The translations under genes were made by a program, and so were the position numbers. A DNA stretch of 29,086 nt. Source: Haplosporangium gracile (Eukaryota > Mortierellomycota > Mortierellomycetes > Mortierellales > Mortierellaceae). The notes below the pieces were generated by a model. It did not search any database. It was not told the DNA's origin and worked only from the letters and a program-made list of their open reading frames with translations. Positions 4,285 to 19,646 of this stretch are shown piece by piece. The stretch's first letter is position 1. Every line of letters starts with the position of its first letter. The stretch spans positions 1 to 29,086 of the forward strand of contig JAAAUF010000156.1 in the NCBI GenBank assembly GCA_015499985.1, in the 5' to 3' direction.

Positions 4285-4475
4285 TTTAATAAGTGATCAA
4301 AAAGAAGGAAGGTTGCCACTACAGACCGCCCACCGTGATAAGTCCAACTCGCTTCTATCCCCTTAAGTCATACTCCTACTTCGTTTTCCAGCTTTGCCCT
4401 GCTCGTACATTCACTTTTACAGCAGAATGCACTCCCAAAAGTCAACCCAAACGACAATCTTACCTCCGCACATCG

Positions 4476-6164
4476 ATGCACACATCTCTCTCATCATCCA
4501 GGAAACACTTACAACAGGAGGTAAACTTTCTAAGAGCAGCAGCAGCAGTTAGGGCAGAGCTCCAGAATGCAATGGAACCATCACCTCCAGACCCACGGAC
4601 AACCAAGGGTATCACCCACGAACAGCGATATCACCTGTGTCTCAAGAAGCAAGACTGTCCCACCATGAAACAGTCCGAGCTAGCAGCCTGGTTCTTGGAG
4701 ACTTACTCGTTCTCCATCAGTCAACCGACCATTTCTCACTCCTTGAAGAAGAGCGTCGAAATCATTGCTAGAGGCATCTCTACTCCAGGACTGGAACCTA
4801 CACGGGTACGGCGGAGACCTGTCCGACATCCAGAACTTGAGCTGGCACTCTTCCAATGGGTGCAACAACAGCAGGAGCAACAGCAGGAACAAGTACGGGG
4901 ACAAGAGCAGTCCGGAGACGGGTTGGATCCAATTTCAGGGCCTGCGCTGGTTCGACAGGCCAAGAAGATTGCTCAGGAAATGAACATTCATGACACGGTC
5001 TTTTGCCCCGGATGGCTATCGCGGTTCAAAATGCGGTACGGGATCACGCCAAGTCGAGGATCCAGTCAACCAGGAAACCACCATCGTCATCATCATCTCA
5101 ACTACGCACATCATTCACATGACCCATACCCACACCAGCGACGACATCGACATCACCAACTTCCTGAGCAACAGCAACCGCAACAGCAACTACAACAACC
5201 GCAGCAGCAGCCTCAAGCAGAGTTTGAAGCACCAATACAAACAGTCAGTTCCATCACAATTTCTAATCACTCGTGCTCTCCTCCTCCGTCTGAGGATTAC
5301 CCGATGCCTCAAACCGATACAGTAACGCCGAGGAGTACCTTCGACTCTTCCGCACTCGGAACAATTGAGATACGACCTTCCATTGCAGTACCAGCCAGCA
5401 TCAACAGCTCTCATTCGTCATTACAGCAACTGCGTCCACCACACACTGGCTTTGGCACGGTACATATACTTCCGTCCTCAGGAGACCTTGATCGGCAGTC
5501 ACTTCACCAGCAACGACAACAACATTTACAACAGCAACAGCAACAGCAGCAACAACAGGATGCACAGCTACTGCAGCAATTCAGGATGCAAACCTATCAA
5601 CCTGCAACTTCACATAGTATCCATCTACACCCTCACAATCAACAGCGGCAACAGCACCAACAGACATTGACTGATTTCCAGGCGGTTTCTGGAGGAGCAC
5701 CGTCATCACCATCGGTAGCAACATCAGCATCGGAAATAACAGCGGCGATGCACCTAGAATTCATTCAGTCTATACCCATTACTGCATCTACCAACGGAAC
5801 TGGATCTCTCCTTCATGCGCCTTCCTCCTTGCCGTCTTCATCGCTCTCGCATCACACTCCAGGATCTCTACTTCGGTCACCCAATGATCCCTTTCAATCG
5901 TCTATTGTCGCAAGGACCGATGCTGTGACTTCTTCTTCATCGTCTACTGGTCGTTCGAAATTAGACTCTGGTTTCACGCAGGGCAAAGTGCAGACTTTAC
6001 AGGAGGCACAGCGACTGGTTCAGCTCTTGAGACAGTATGCAGGGTCCAATCTCCAGGACCCGACAGGAGCATTGAAGAGTTTGGAGTCGTTGGAGTGGGA
6101 ATTGGATCCCACTAAGATGAGAGGGTCTATCACAATCTCTGAAGTGGGAGACGATCAAGACTAA
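4476..6164 (+). CDS. CENP-B/Abp1-type helix-turn-helix DNA-binding protein, polyQ-rich, lacking a DDE transposase core
   Basis: A single open frame of 562 residues without introns. Near residues 40-85 is a first HTH (ITHEQRYHLCLKKQ...SELAAWFLETYSFSISQPTISHSLKKS), like the N-terminal domain of fission yeast Abp1/CENP-B proteins. A second, CENP-B/Tc5-type HTH follows: RRRPVRHPELELALFQWV, a Gln-rich insert, ISGPALVRQAKKIAQEM and CPGWLSRFKMRYGI. The rest is Gln-, His- and Ser-rich, and no DDE catalytic domain follows. The C-terminus has a short leucine-rich stretch (LQEAQRLVQLLRQYA). It is probably a nuclear DNA-binding protein domesticated from a Tc5/pogo-type transposase; its target is unknown. 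The first in-frame ATG is 4476 and an alternative is 4572. The frame is open further upstream to 4293 but only with a GTG. An AATAAA lies at 6182-6187, just after the stop. Confidence 0.72.
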   Translation: MHTSLSSSRKHLQQEVNFLRAAAAVRAELQNAMEPSPPDPRTTKGITHEQRYHLCLKKQDCPTMKQSELAAWFLETYSFSISQPTISHSLKKSVEIIARGISTPGLEPTRVRRRPVRHPELELALFQWVQQQQEQQQEQVRGQEQSGDGLDPISGPALVRQAKKIAQEMNIHDTVFCPGWLSRFKMRYGITPSRGSSQPGNHHRHHHLNYAHHSHDPYPHQRRHRHHQLPEQQQPQQQLQQPQQQPQAEFEAPIQTVSSITISNHSCSPPPSEDYPMPQTDTVTPRSTFDSSALGTIEIRPSIAVPASINSSHSSLQQLRPPHTGFGTVHILPSSGDLDRQSLHQQRQQHLQQQQQQQQQQDAQLLQQFRMQTYQPATSHSIHLHPHNQQRQQHQQTLTDFQAVSGGAPSSPSVATSASEITAAMHLEFIQSIPITASTNGTGSLLHAPSSLPSSSLSHHTPGSLLRSPNDPFQSSIVARTDAVTSSSSSTGRSKLDSGFTQGKVQTLQEAQRLVQLLRQYAGSNLQDPTGALKSLESLEWELDPTKMRGSITISEVGDDQD

Positions 6165-14895: not shown

Positions 14896-16421
14896 CTAAT
14901 TCGAGACATAAGCAGAATTCTGCCAACAGAGCGGAGCAGGACGGGTAAGGCCCCTGATCCAAGTCTCTCCAACAACTGCAAGATTGTGGACGCGCACAAT
15001 ATCCCTGTGCAACCACCGACCACAAGTCAAACATGCGTATGAGCACATGGTGGGCTTGGCCAAACGCGAAGAGACCCCCAATTCCACGCATGTTGGACAC
15101 ATAGTTGATGTTAGTATCTTGTCCACAAGGACAACAATGTGTCCGGCAACTGCGGCCTATGGTATCAAGAAATTACCATATGAGCAAAGTCAGTACTTAA
15201 GTTGAGTTGCAAAAGGGGAAGCTGAAAAGGAACAATGCGAAAGCAAGGCTCGCCCTCTGAGCAAACCGTCGTTTAAACGACCCATGTACTGATGCCAAGT
15301 TAAGACCAGTTTTAAATCAACCGTTCCCATAGCAGAACAGGGTCTTCCGAGTACAGGAGCTCCAAACAGCGTCGATCGCGCAGTCCATTTCAGCCCGTTT
15401 TCACTTGGTTAGTTCCCAATCTTTCTTTTGATCTGGCCAGATGCGTAGAAGTCCTGCAAAACAGGACGAACCAGAAAGACGCGCTGGATAGCCTTTTCGA
15501 GTTCTTCTTGAGTGTCATGCTGGTACGGGGGAAGAAGGTTTTCCATATCCTTGATGAAGGGAAGGGAGACATTGATCTTGTCACGGTCAGGGTCCACACT
15601 GACCCATAGATCCGCCGAGACCTCCTGACCTGGAGCAACTACCGGTCGCTGCATCTTGATGTTGTCCAGGTGGCTGCGATGTGCAAGTACCGGGCTGTAC
15701 AACGCAAGGCGACTCACAACGAGGTAATAAGCTGCGATAGCAGGGAAGAAAACGGGGCTGTTGTTGCTGTCCTCAGGTCGACTCAAAACAGCCTTGTCCA
15801 CACTTGTCCCAACAGATCTTGATTCCTCCACCAGACGTTCAAGACGACAAAACGCAGCCGGATTAACCTTCCCGAGATCGACACCCCAAACATCAATGTC
15901 ATCTACGAACTCCACTCCAAACTCGTCCAAGATGGATTGAAACGTTAGAAACCGGCGTTCGGTTCGATATACTGGAGCAAATGAGCCGCGGGATCGATGA
16001 GCCTTTGTGGTATCGTAACACAATGTATGTAGCTGAAGACCATTGGTGGAAATGACGTTTGAAAGGGCGTAGCGGTCTGTAGTGGCATCGGTAGGGAGAG
16101 GTGGTGGGGTCCGGTCGCAAATTCGCTGTTGCTCACAGCACAAGTTGGCGTCGTAGATGTAAGCGTACTTTTCCGTCAGATACAATTGCAAGGCCATCGC
16201 CCCGTAAACGTCGCCGCTGGAGTTGGCGAGATCAGCCATGCTGGTGGTGCCTTTGCCATATGGTGTTTGCCATACCGAACCAGAATTCCGAATCTTCGCT
16301 TGGTCTCCATAGAACAAGATTTGATCAGCGCCCCGTAGTCCTTATTGACCAGGCTATGGGCCATCTCTCTCGTCATGAGCTTGAGTGCAGACTCCCGAGC
16401 AGGATTAAGAAACTTCCGCAT
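14896..16421 (-). pseudogene. RuvC/zinc-ribbon nuclease part (TnpB/Fanzor-like) of the relic
   Basis: The frame 16176-16421 (MRKFLNPARESALKLMTREM) overlaps a longer one, 15409-16317, which carries RuvC-I and the stretch KDMENLLPPYQHDTQEELEK...FYASGQIKRK. A frameshift then gives WELTK, a stop, and KRAEMDCAIDAV, followed by LFCYGNG, TGA, and FKTGLNLASVHGSFKRRFAQ. The last frame, down to 14896, has GHIVVLVDKILTSTMCPTC, CSYACLTCGRWLHRD and RVHNLAVVGETWIRGL. The two CxxC pairs and HRD are the TnpB/Fanzor zinc ribbon and RuvC-III pattern. The usual DE before the YxTS element is DK here. Confidence 0.68.
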
Positions 16422-16464
16422 CGTTCCCCAGAGGATCTCGGGCAGAGCTCTCTTTCTTCAAACA

Positions 16465-18489
16465 TCACAAAGCAACTCTTGAATATCTTTCGAAGACGGA
16501 ACACAGGACGTGCGGACGAGGAGAGTCGAGTGGCTTGAGACCATCAATGTCGAAGATACCCAGGGGGGAAACTCGAGGAGGTGTCCTCCTCTTTCTCCTC
16601 CTCATCCTTGTCGTTGTAGCCGTTACCCTCTGCTGTTTCCTCGACTGCAGCGGGACTCGCGTCATCTGAAGACTCATCTTCCTTGAACGAATCAGCGGGC
16701 AGTTCGTTCTTGGCTCAGCCACACTTGATCATCTATTGTGTAAGATCGAAGGAGTAAAGATATTTAGTCTCCGAAAACTATGCTCATATGCAAGAACATG
16801 CAAAATATATACATAGGAAATACATACCCGAGAGCCGATACAAAGCGGTATCTTGCGGAAATGCGTCCTCAGGTTCACGATGACTTGTTTGGCGGCCGCA
16901 AAGACAGGTCTTCCCAATGCGATGTGGTGCGTATTGGCCGGTTTGAATCCAGGAAGTATCATTGAAGGCGATCATAGGCCCGTTGCGCGATCGCCTTAAC
17001 AGCCTTACTTGAAGATTTCTAGGTGGGAGGGCCTCTGTTGTCGAACTTGCCATTTAGCGCCAATGAAAAACAAGTGTTTGATAAGGGACATCCCGGCAGA
17101 CTTCTGCAGAACAAGATCCAAACTATCAACTTCCTCATTGATTTCCCTGAACTGCCTGACAACCCGGACCGAACAAACGCCTTTCCTTGGTTCAGCGTCA
17201 CCTGGCCCATCACAAAATCTGACTCGGATTGGCCACTGCCACCTGCCGAGCCGTTCGAGTCACTCCAGAGTTCTTCCCAGATGACAATCTCCAGCATCCG
17301 ATCACGACGACAGCGGCCTGGTTCATGGTGTTGGTGGCAGCTGAGAGTCTCCTAGCCGAAGCAGTGAAGTCACCCTCGTCCATAGCCGACTTGCCATCGC
17401 TGTTCCTAAACACGGACAAAAGTGCGCGGCGTAGGCAACCTCGAAGACTACCCAGAATTCAAGTCGAAGTTGCGAAAGTTCCTGCGAAGGCTACTGTTTG
17501 TGCTGGAGCAGGTGTCTTTGGCTTACGGAGCTTCTTAAGTTTCTTTCTGGGTTTCCTGGGGGCGGCCTTGGCACTGGCTTTGGAAGACGTTGCATCGAGA
17601 CTTGTCTTGCTACTGGAACAAGAGGCAGAACCGCTGGACGATGACGAGCTCGAGGATGATATCGATGGCAAAGGATCGCAGCCGGGTGGGGGATCGTTTG
17701 TTTTTTCTTGGTTTTTGGCAGTACCGGGGTAAACTTTGCCGCTTCATCCGGGTCTACTATCTTGGCTTCCGCAATCGTCACCTTCCGAACCGAGTACCGC
17801 TTATCCTTGTCCGTCCTAGATTTGAATCTGATTTTTTTTTAAAATATTAACATTCTGTATACGGTGAAGCATCTAGATACATATGCACAGCTGAAAATGA
17901 AATTCTTATTAAGCTTACTTAGCAGTACACCACTTCTTGTGCTTGGGTTTCCTTTTCCTGCGTTGTCGAAGCCAACTCATACGTCGCTCTTGTCGTTTTA
18001 GCGACCTCTTGCGCTTTGGTGAGCCAAGTGGCTGAATGGTAGCGAAAGGTGGTGAAGGTGGTGAAGGTGGTGGTGGTGAGTTGGATGAGGTCGAGGATAG
18101 AGCTTCAAGAGTCATTCCAGAGGTCCCTCAGGCATTACTTTCATCGGTGCACCAAATTCCTGCTCCGTCGAGAATGGAATGTTGCCGCTCTTGGTGGTGG
18201 CGGTAGCGGCGGTGATGGCTTGCTGTTGTTGTTGCTGTTTGGTTCCCTCGTAAGGTCGTTCAAGAACAGAAACAACAATCTCGTGGGCTGGAGGTGGTTG
18301 GTCGATATCCTCGATGGGCTCCAACGTGCTTGACTCCGTACGCTGGACGAATGTCGTGATGGCGTAACGAGAATGTTCAACACCAAAGTCGACCGCTTTT
18401 TGTTGCTTGCCCTTCCGTGACTTGGATCGCGTTCGCTGGGATAGAAGACGGTTGTTGACTAGATCGATGTACTCCTTGGTGTAGGGCAT
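16465..18489 (-). pseudogene. Charged, low-complexity linker of the relic
   Basis: Composition changes in blocks: GVEHSRYAITTFVQRTESS with a poly-Gln run (18489-18112), then a very basic block (SPKRKRSLKRQERR, 18115-17919). A clean 103-bp intron (17816-17918, GTAAGC to TCTAG) joins WCTAK to TDKDKRYSVRKVTIAEAK. Lys/Ser-rich sequence follows. A second intron (16733-16827, GTATGT to CAATAG) leads into MIKCG, a TGA stop, then AKNELPADSFKEDESSDDAS, an acidic block. These joints argue that the whole region was once one spliced gene. Several overlapping frames are open, so exact coding frames between 17.0 and 17.7 kb are uncertain. Confidence 0.5.
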
Positions 18490-18630
18490 AATCTCTATGG
18501 CTCGCTCGTTGTTTTCGTTGACACTTCCAAGAGGCAGCCAGGCCGAAAAGATCCATGTGGCGAATAATGTCGTAGTTTGTTGATAATTAGGGGATGTTGC
18601 GAACGTAATCGTTGCTTGTCACAAGACATG

Positions 18631-19646
18631 CTAATAGGAGGTGCTGCTCGATCGGAAGATTGAGATGTCGAGCGACTCTTTAGACACGGTGATGAGCTCA
18701 TGTAACTTCGCCACCGGTATGGTGATACTCTCCACTCCCCCGTAGACGTTGATATCGCTGTCCCGGGTGATGAAGACGAGGTGGCTCGGATCCGGGGACT
18801 GTTGGCATACGAGAGCCAAACAATTAGCTGCCTGACAGTGGCAATGATGAAGAGTCCAGCCTAGCTTGACCATAACCAGAAAGATCTCGCTATCCATGAC
18901 CGTCCTTAGAGTCCGATAGGCGTTCCCGCACTTTTTCAGCAGGGACCGAGTAGGCTTGGCTCTGGACTTGTTGGCCTCCTCCTGCAGCTTTGTCAGAGAC
19001 CTTCCCAACACGGCATTTCTTCTCCGGTGTTCCTGTCTTTTCTGCTCCGAGGGCATTCCGTCGATGTGTATAACGGTCTGATCCTTTTCCAAGATCTTGG
19101 ACTAAACCGAGTCCAGGACGCAGCCCACTGTGCTATTGTAATGAAAATATTAAAATGCTAAATGTTAGCAGCTGATATTATACAATATTTTGTTAATCAC
19201 AGGCAAAAGCAAAAAAAATACATCACCAATCTCTCCTCGTCTTTCGACACTATAGAAAGTCCATTTGGATGCGCGTACAAGTCGTTAGGGTCCAGTTTCT
19301 GGATAGACTCTTCGATGACCTGATTTAGGGTGAAGGTTGGGTTGTACGGCAGATGTGCGCGGCGATCTGGAACGGTCGTCATAGGCTGGTGGTGGTTAAG
19401 AAGTCGCCTTTTTCTTGATCCATCGAAGGTGTAAGTGTCTAGGGGCTGGTTGGATTCTTGTTTTTCGATCTGAAGGAAGGTGCCATTCTTAATACGGGCG
19501 TGAACGATTTTGAAGACAAGCTCTTGAACCAATTTAAAGAACCGGAACATAAAATCAATGTGAGTTTTGACGCCTGACGTCTTACACCAAGTCTCAAGCT
19601 GTCCACCACACCCTTTTAGTTCCTTTGGTAAACCGGCTACGCCCAT
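18631..19646 (-). pseudogene. XPG/FEN1-like (PIN-fold) nuclease part of the relic
   Basis: Segments 19227-19646 and about 18631-19101 join at phase 0 across a 125-bp intron (19102-19226; donor GTGATG, acceptor TTTAG, with CTAAC-type branch sequences), giving EERL|SKILEKDQTVIHIDG. Expected acidic residues of the family: Asp in HIDF (codon near 19556), Asp in HIDG (near 19062), and RDSD (near 18762) are all present. The Glu-Ala-Asp expected after GWTLHHC is replaced by Gln-Ala-Ala-Asn (near 18834), which should cripple metal binding. The frame then shifts near 18655. FEN1/XPG enzymes cut flapped or branched DNA; the job of this branch is unknown. Confidence 0.68.

Follow-up and report, generated by a model that had tools for sequence, protein, structure and literature searches.

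Nucleases of the Fanzor1 type have been described in several eukaryotic elements. In the part of PMC10432273 considered here, SpuFz1 of Spizellomyces punctatus is the single open reading frame (ORF) of an element with inverted repeats. The available text of PMC3627910 describes Fanzor1 elements of the Mucoromycota (ROr-4, PBl-3, and MCi-4; known in Mucor, Rhizopus, and Phycomyces) that have no MuDR transposase and carry MuDR-like terminal inverted repeats (TIRs); Fanzor1 elements of the MuDR type, with TIRs and 9-bp target-site duplications; and viral Fanzor1-bearing Mariner elements (PGv-1, Mariner-2_PGv, and Mariner-1_OLpv) with a second nuclease, GIY-YIG and others. AcademX DNA transposons also encode a nuclease, according to the portion of PMC10045372 that concerns them. 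In this study, we analyzed 29,086 nucleotides of the fungus Haplosporangium gracile (contig JAAAUF010000156.1, positions 1 to 29,086; this whole stretch is hereafter called the window), which carries a dead, decayed member of a dispersed element family at 14896-19646 of the minus strand. Relatives of this copy in the same genome suggest that the element gene quite probably encodes one protein, in which a long linker connects an N-terminal XPG/FEN1-family nuclease to a C-terminal RuvC nuclease of the TnpB/Fanzor type that bears a zinc ribbon.

The family has in common with SpuFz1, ROr-4, PBl-3, and MCi-4 a TnpB-type RuvC and a zinc ribbon in a eukaryotic element, whereas in the present family the RuvC part comes after an XPG/FEN1-like nuclease of about 255 amino acids (aa) and a linker of about 495 aa. 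As far as the viral Mariner elements are described in the text cited above, they are likewise Fanzor elements that encode another nuclease; their second nuclease is separate and of another fold, whereas here it is of the XPG type and is predicted to lie in the same protein. Among solved structures, the RuvC half matched L79 (PDB 9b0l) best, followed by LaTranC; these proteins and bacterial TnpB are without an XPG domain. L79, which we take to be a mimivirus protein, also has the glutamate of the NEY motif before the zinc ribbon, and its chain is 520 aa long. The AcademX nuclease is itself of the XPG type, and its partner there is a DDE transposase. Within the limits of the source on AcademX, the common feature is a nuclease in a DNA transposon; the partner in the present family is predicted to be a TnpB-type RuvC instead.

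In the open-licence literature, among the papers listed, we found no XPG-Fanzor fusion (Repbase and subscription papers were outside this search), and no paper there linked Fanzor or TnpB with an XPG nuclease or with Mortierella; papers mentioning TnpB together with flap endonuclease seem unrelated from their titles, and the words FEN1, accessory, and domain fusion are absent from PMC10711439. The whole appears to be a variant of Fanzor-type elements with an XPG fusion that we did not find described. If this is true, a structure-specific nuclease would belong to the same protein in this lineage, so that the steering of a break to repair could be tested in one enzyme. Furthermore, it would be a natural precedent for an RNA-guided cut coupled to end processing, which would be useful in genome engineering.

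Copies of the family and the predicted gene

The genome is a 37.5-Mb draft of 1,157 contigs, designated here by C and a number. When pieces of the window copy were used as queries, C433 was found, in which the pieces for XPG, RuvC, and zinc ribbon are 59-80% identical to the queries; more distant relatives, including C129, were found as well. The XPG and RuvC exons of C129 as queries then gave at least 34 XPG places and at least 75 RuvC places in the genome. In the tally, XPG matches were counted on 28 contigs and RuvC or zinc-ribbon matches on 43. Outside this tally stand C274 (XPG N-piece only, and no RuvC piece within its 10 kb), C497 (E 0.047 within a long hydrophobic ORF, regarded as a chance match), C229 (E 0.36, its XPG piece being recognized only by eye), the relatives of the window's RuvC piece on C1, C319, and C757, and the zinc-ribbon-only contigs except C247. 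Both halves were present in 17 tallied contigs, and the XPG part was upstream of the RuvC part on the same strand in all 17. The gap between the two was 1.48-1.83 kb in 10 of these 17 contigs, shorter in C841, C425, C441, C812, and C433, and longer in the window (2.3 kb) and in C232 (2.5 kb, measured to the zinc ribbon). No relatives were found in viral contigs with the C129 XPG sequence and alignment A3 as queries, or in bacterial and archaeal genome contigs with alignment A3. A second copy on C129, inverted and decayed, was also observed near the contig start on the opposite strand, where an XPG fragment and a RuvC fragment of the same orientation lie side by side, XPG again before RuvC (L058 901-1209 (-) and L058 3-263 (-)).

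On C129, five predicted exons gave an unbroken frame of 1,335 aa from M to stop, which includes both halves. C718, whose identity to C129 is 46% over the XPG exon and 59% over the RuvC exon, showed four predicted introns at the same places and in the same phases (1, 2, 0, and 0) as C129. In C749, introns 1 and 3 agreed with those of C129 and C718 (phases 1 and 0, respectively), and the best intron 4 was of phase 0 with a different donor. The chosen introns were the top-scoring candidates, except for intron 2 of C129, for which the second-ranked acceptor, sharing the donor and phase of the first, was taken because it matches C718. Between C129 and C718, the ratio of nonsynonymous to synonymous differences (pN/pS), a rough measure here, was 0.47 for the XPG exon, 0.67 for exon 2, 0.50 for the linker, 0.36 for the RuvC exon, and 0.19 for the zinc ribbon; comparisons with C808 gave 0.50-0.52 for the linker and 0.32-0.36 for RuvC. 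With pN/pS below 1 in every exon, both nucleases and the linker look constrained.

An arrangement of two neighboring genes, one for an XPG nuclease and the other for a Fanzor-like nuclease, that travel together and give two proteins was considered as an alternative. XPG-free RuvC copies such as C808, with its open RuvC exon of 510 aa, would agree with it. Moreover, some Fanzor1-bearing Mariner elements are described as encoding the second nuclease as a separate protein, in the available text of PMC3627910. However, predicted introns 1 and 2 interrupt codons at matching positions of C129 and C718 (phases 1 and 2), and the phase of intron 1 recurs in C749; these introns therefore seem to serve one reading frame. 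Two genes are also difficult to reconcile with the constraint on the linker and with C749, in which an exon-2-like stretch follows exon 1 in one 462-aa ORF (by eye; tblastn of exon 2 missed this stretch). We regard the two-gene arrangement as improbable.

Several observations nevertheless weigh against the one-protein model. The introns were predicted from sequence with a home-made consensus score, and some scores were low. Among the copies read exon by exon, C129 alone is open throughout; C718 has one premature stop near the start. The pN/pS values are rough because the synonymous differences between C129 and C718 (0.70-0.81 per site) are near saturation, and the constraint on exon 2 is weak (0.67 over 76 codons). 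In addition, 11 of the 28 tallied XPG contigs had no RuvC match, and C274 is another such contig outside the tally. These 11 include C855 and C416, where fewer than 670 bases remain to the contig end toward which the strand runs; C472, where about 1.5 kb remain and the linker is present; C508, an internal-deletion derivative; C592, the top XPG_I place of the genome (E 1.1e-25) and probably a host gene; and six others (C44, C675, C236, C922, C167, and C304). Conversely, 26 of the 43 tallied RuvC contigs had no XPG match, and C808 (L067 1379-4045 (+)), the sole XPG-free copy whose upstream part was read, begins in the middle of the linker with no XPG part detected. The first-pass annotation of the window had suggested that the parts of its copy may once have been one protein. 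This suggestion gained ground, as C129 holds both halves in one predicted spliced frame and all 17 tallied contigs with both show them in collinear order; they are accordingly not always separate in the relatives.

The two nuclease halves

The XPG exon of C129 matched XPG_I (PF00867) at 1.8e-4 and Pox_G5 at 5.4e-6, both slightly below the Pfam cut-offs, and an archaeal FEN-1 model at 7.5e-5, far below the cut-off of that model; the C472 copy matched XPG_I at 1.8e-4, also slightly below the cut-off. A genome scan with PF00867 gave three strong places (C592, C1035, and C240), which are likely host genes, and six weaker places belonging to this family, three of which (C749, C718, and C425) were over the cut-off. 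When the C129 exon was searched against PDB as a single sequence, Rad2 and XPG chains were on top, and the best E was only 0.096. A nine-row XPG profile, with two rows from C472 and one from the window, matched an XPG-FEN1 chimera at 1.1e-6, Rad2 at 1.8e-6, and FEN1 chains from 6.3e-5. The I region, the acidic positions, and the helix-3-turn-helix (H3TH) are thus common to the family and the XPG/Rad2/FEN1 nucleases. In C129, the acidic positions were found in RVDV, YVDG, TEAD, DSD, and NDY, which we presume to be the seven active-site acids of FEN1, and the H3TH motif could be aligned with Rad2 and XPG-FEN1 chains across NDY..N..LG. In contrast to the known XPG/Rad2/FEN1 nucleases, this half is very divergent, the second glutamate of E-A-E is replaced by D in the alignment with Rad2/XPG chains, and it is joined to a TnpB-like nuclease in a dispersed element. 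Judging from the sequence, the XPG half is likely to be an active nuclease.

The zinc-ribbon exon of C129 matched PF07282 at 1.3e-12 and guided_TnpB at 5e-9, the latter below the cut-off of that full-length model, and 32 of 47 places were over the cut-off in a genome scan with PF07282. The RuvC exon of C129 alone matched no TnpB family or PDB chain. When a six-row profile of RuvC and zinc ribbon (A2) was compared with PDB, the TnpB-like L79 (1.4e-3) and LaTranC (5e-3) were matched; the alignment of A2 with L79 spans the RuvC end and the zinc ribbon, including NEYLTTKTC and the final RD..AA.N. A 19-row profile (A1), one row of which is linker (C749 exon 3, L061 3-755), had no PDB match, which speaks against the assignment. 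The catalytic residues of SpuFz1 are given as D383, E541, and D606 in the available parts of PMC10432273 and PMC11423790. In C129, the corresponding acids are D in TLDGG, E in NEYYTS right before the zinc ribbon, and D in HRD, and equivalents of the three were present in C129, C718, and C749 by alignment and by eye. When only the aligned rows covering the position in question are counted, all 7 have the RuvC-I D, 8 of 9 have the E, and 8 of 9 also have the last D; the exceptions are the window and C652.

We also considered an AcademX-like protein, namely an XPG nuclease joined to a DDE transposase that has a cysteine-rich domain and was taken for TnpB. AcademX transposons do encode a nuclease besides the transposase, as stated in the portion of PMC10045372 at hand. 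Against this, the zinc ribbon has the PF07282 and guided_TnpB matches given above, and A2 aligns with L79 through the RuvC end and the zinc ribbon; AcademX is known here by description only. Such a protein is therefore very improbable. The C-terminal half had been assigned in the first-pass annotation by motif order only, and PF07282, guided_TnpB, and L79 now supply profile matches for it. Since RNA guidance is only inferred, the RuvC half is called TnpB/Fanzor-like here, and we do not present the element as a proven Fanzor.

Element ends, conserved 3' end, and a possible mechanism

In C508, the 5' part of C841 and the 3' end of C554 are represented by two stretches, each 87% identical to its counterpart, with almost nothing between them. 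Therefore, one deletion would have taken the middle of a unit with an XPG 5' end and a RuvC-tail 3' end. The ends of C508 are clear inverted repeats of about 20 bp (GGACAATGGGCACCATAATT versus GGACAATGGGCGCCATAATT). The left end was also found in C841 and the right end in C129 and C554; in C718, a clear right end and a weak left end are 4.75 kb apart. In shuffled sequence, a loose pattern of the ends matched about 11 times per 56 kb; because this pattern is unspecific by itself, the element ends rest on their location at the edges of similarity. Different copies lie in different flanks, and C508 and C841 have nothing in common upstream of the left end. When C129 and C718 were simply compared with themselves, no terminal repeat was reported. 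In contrast to MuDR-type Fanzor1 elements with their 9-bp duplications, no target-site duplication was found in the two copies tried, C508 and C718, which counts against the proposed element.

No transposase gene was recognized between the ends (ORFs of the opposite strand were outside the scan), and hence the element would need a transposase in trans. A SWIM-bearing ORF (SWIM E 0.0016, just below the cut-off) adjoins the C129 element on the left (L025 245-992 (+)), and a related SWIM-bearing fragment is located on C618 beside another element copy (L041 4-814 (-)). We take these fragments to be MULE-like transposase, and they are a possible source of the trans-acting enzyme. A MULE transposase as the element's own was rejected, as there was no match in the other examined loci, including the flanks of C718, C841, and C508. 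A piggyBac transposase (DDE_Tnp_1_7), which on C1 is the immediate neighbor of the RuvC piece (1.1e-15) and is faint on C229 (0.061), was dropped as a partner because it concerned one or two loci only and was probably a nested insertion or chimerism. On C1, the DDE_Tnp_1_7 ORF (L016 5338-6138 (+)) overlaps or adjoins the relative of the window's RuvC piece (L016 5931-6650).

The last 110 bp or so were 78-83% identical between distant copies (C129 or C718 versus C508 or C554), whereas the coding pieces in the same comparison were mostly 64-77% identical. An nhmmer model built from four ends detected nine further loci among those examined. Directly inside the right end, a CTTCGGTGACGTAATT block was well conserved among distant copies (3' ends of 13 copies, e.g. 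L050 1879-2003). The conserved 3' end may be an RNA scaffold or a terminus bound by a transposase or another protein, both of which look alike. Single folds of five 3' ends gave z-scores of -2.6, -3.3, -1.7, -2.9, and 0.0, four of the five being better than the shuffled means. The C129 3' end had no Rfam match. RNAalifold predicted zero pairs on the aligned 3' ends, and the structure derived from C508 paired 63.1% of cells versus 63.6% in shuffles. Slid versions of this structure paired 32-50% of cells, but a structure taken from a member outscores slid versions for that reason alone. The terminal hairpin, convincing in single folds, failed the covariation control, and a guide RNA (omegaRNA) is not claimed for this end.

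These results bear on a further explanation, that the RuvC half is Fanzor-derived, has lost its guidance, and acts as a DNA-binding or structure-specific nuclease partner of the XPG half. The part upstream of RuvC, equivalent to REC/WED, was recognized by no profile in the Pfam and TnpB-family scans, the match to known TnpB is confined to the RuvC end and the zinc ribbon, and RNAalifold and the covariation tests gave no conserved RNA structure, all of which would suit lost guidance. In contrast, the RuvC acids are kept in most of the aligned rows, as described above, and the conserved terminal 110 bp fits a guide scaffold, although a transposase-bound terminus would look alike. We judge the loss of guidance unlikely, and lean toward a Fanzor-like, RNA-guided nuclease in the RuvC half.

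In the models proposed for TnpB and Fanzor, transposons persist at their sites because the empty site is cut and repair restores the element. By analogy, the RuvC half of the predicted protein would cut the element-free site using an element-derived RNA, and the XPG half could then act on the break by flap trimming or 5'-end resection, which would bias repair toward copying the element back. Alternatively, the XPG half might process transposition intermediates. That the two halves work together, as in the coupled cut-and-process or homing mechanism suggested in the first-pass annotation, is possible but tentative: the protein would cleave the element-free site and subsequently process 5' ends or flaps, and repair would recopy the element. 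The stronger proposal, that a single polypeptide combines an RNA-guided nuclease with a flap/5' nuclease and thereby gives a fungal transposon lineage a self-contained machine for homing by cutting and resection, appears rather doubtful.

The decayed copy in the window

On the minus strand, the copy at 14896-19646 starts with an XPG-like N-region and then an XPG-like I-region; a long and decayed linker separates these from a RuvC-like part, which the TnpB-type zinc ribbon follows. The motifs named in the first-pass annotation were all located on this one strand in the claimed order. The XPG N-region piece at 19200..19646 (-), the start of the relic gene, is an ORF with MGVAGL (19646-19629) and HIDF (19562-19551), and pieces 63-78% identical to it were found on C433 and C274. 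The I-region piece at 18634..19101 (-), with HIDGMP (19068-19051) and RDSD (18765-18754), had matches on C433, C232, C472, and C129; it was found by the C129 XPG sequence at E 5.7e-4 and by a C129/C718 profile at 3.6e-5. An H3TH piece, TSNDYVRNIP, overlooked in the first-pass annotation, was detected in a different frame at 18554..18682 (-) by hmmsearch with the C129/C718 profile (E 0.018 alone) and is followed by a stop. By themselves, the XPG pieces of the window had no Pfam XPG match, and their assignment to XPG was made because the relatives carry it; the XPG/FEN1 identity was hence confirmed through the profiles of the relatives, which match XPG/Rad2/FEN1, and not from the window pieces alone.

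The decayed linker region between the halves (16458..18630 (-)) contains ORFs and is placed like exons 2-3 of C129 and C718, a correspondence of position. The RuvC half at 15412..16457 (-) has relatives on C433, C1, C319, C757, and C229; it contains VISTNGLQL (16030-16056), aligned to SIRTDGFRVQLL, and the RuvC-I motif GVDLG (15885-15871). A later RuvC piece at 15193..15408 (-), with FCYGNG (15337-15320) and then a stop, has pieces 70-80% identical on C433. The zinc ribbon at 14899..15156 (-), with TSTMCPTC (15111-15088), CLTCG (15033-15019), and HRD (15009-15001), matched PF07282 at 6.4e-6 (28.6 bits in the genome scan) and guided_TnpB (NF040570) at 3.1e-4. It was the only one of the 10 scanned window pieces over a Pfam cut-off, and just over it. 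This match and the pieces of C433 place the motifs beyond chance.

The copy has a stop right before SKILEKD, ahead of the I-region ORF, in addition to the stops after the H3TH piece and after FCYGNG. The view that the parts of the window copy still join in frame was not borne out, given these stops and the frame shift at the H3TH piece, not every possible intron having been tried. The XPG I-region has Q-A-A versus E-A-D in the relatives, so that two acidic XPG positions are absent, and K replaces the glutamate of the relatives' NE(Y/F) motif ahead of the zinc ribbon, which leaves the three RuvC acids of TnpB/Fanzor incomplete. Elsewhere in the window, a 622-aa ORF at 4296-6164 (+), in which no DDE domain was reported at E 0.001, matched HTH_Tnp_Tc5 (1.3e-9) and HTH_ABP1_N (3.1e-6), as a CENP-B-like DNA-binding protein.

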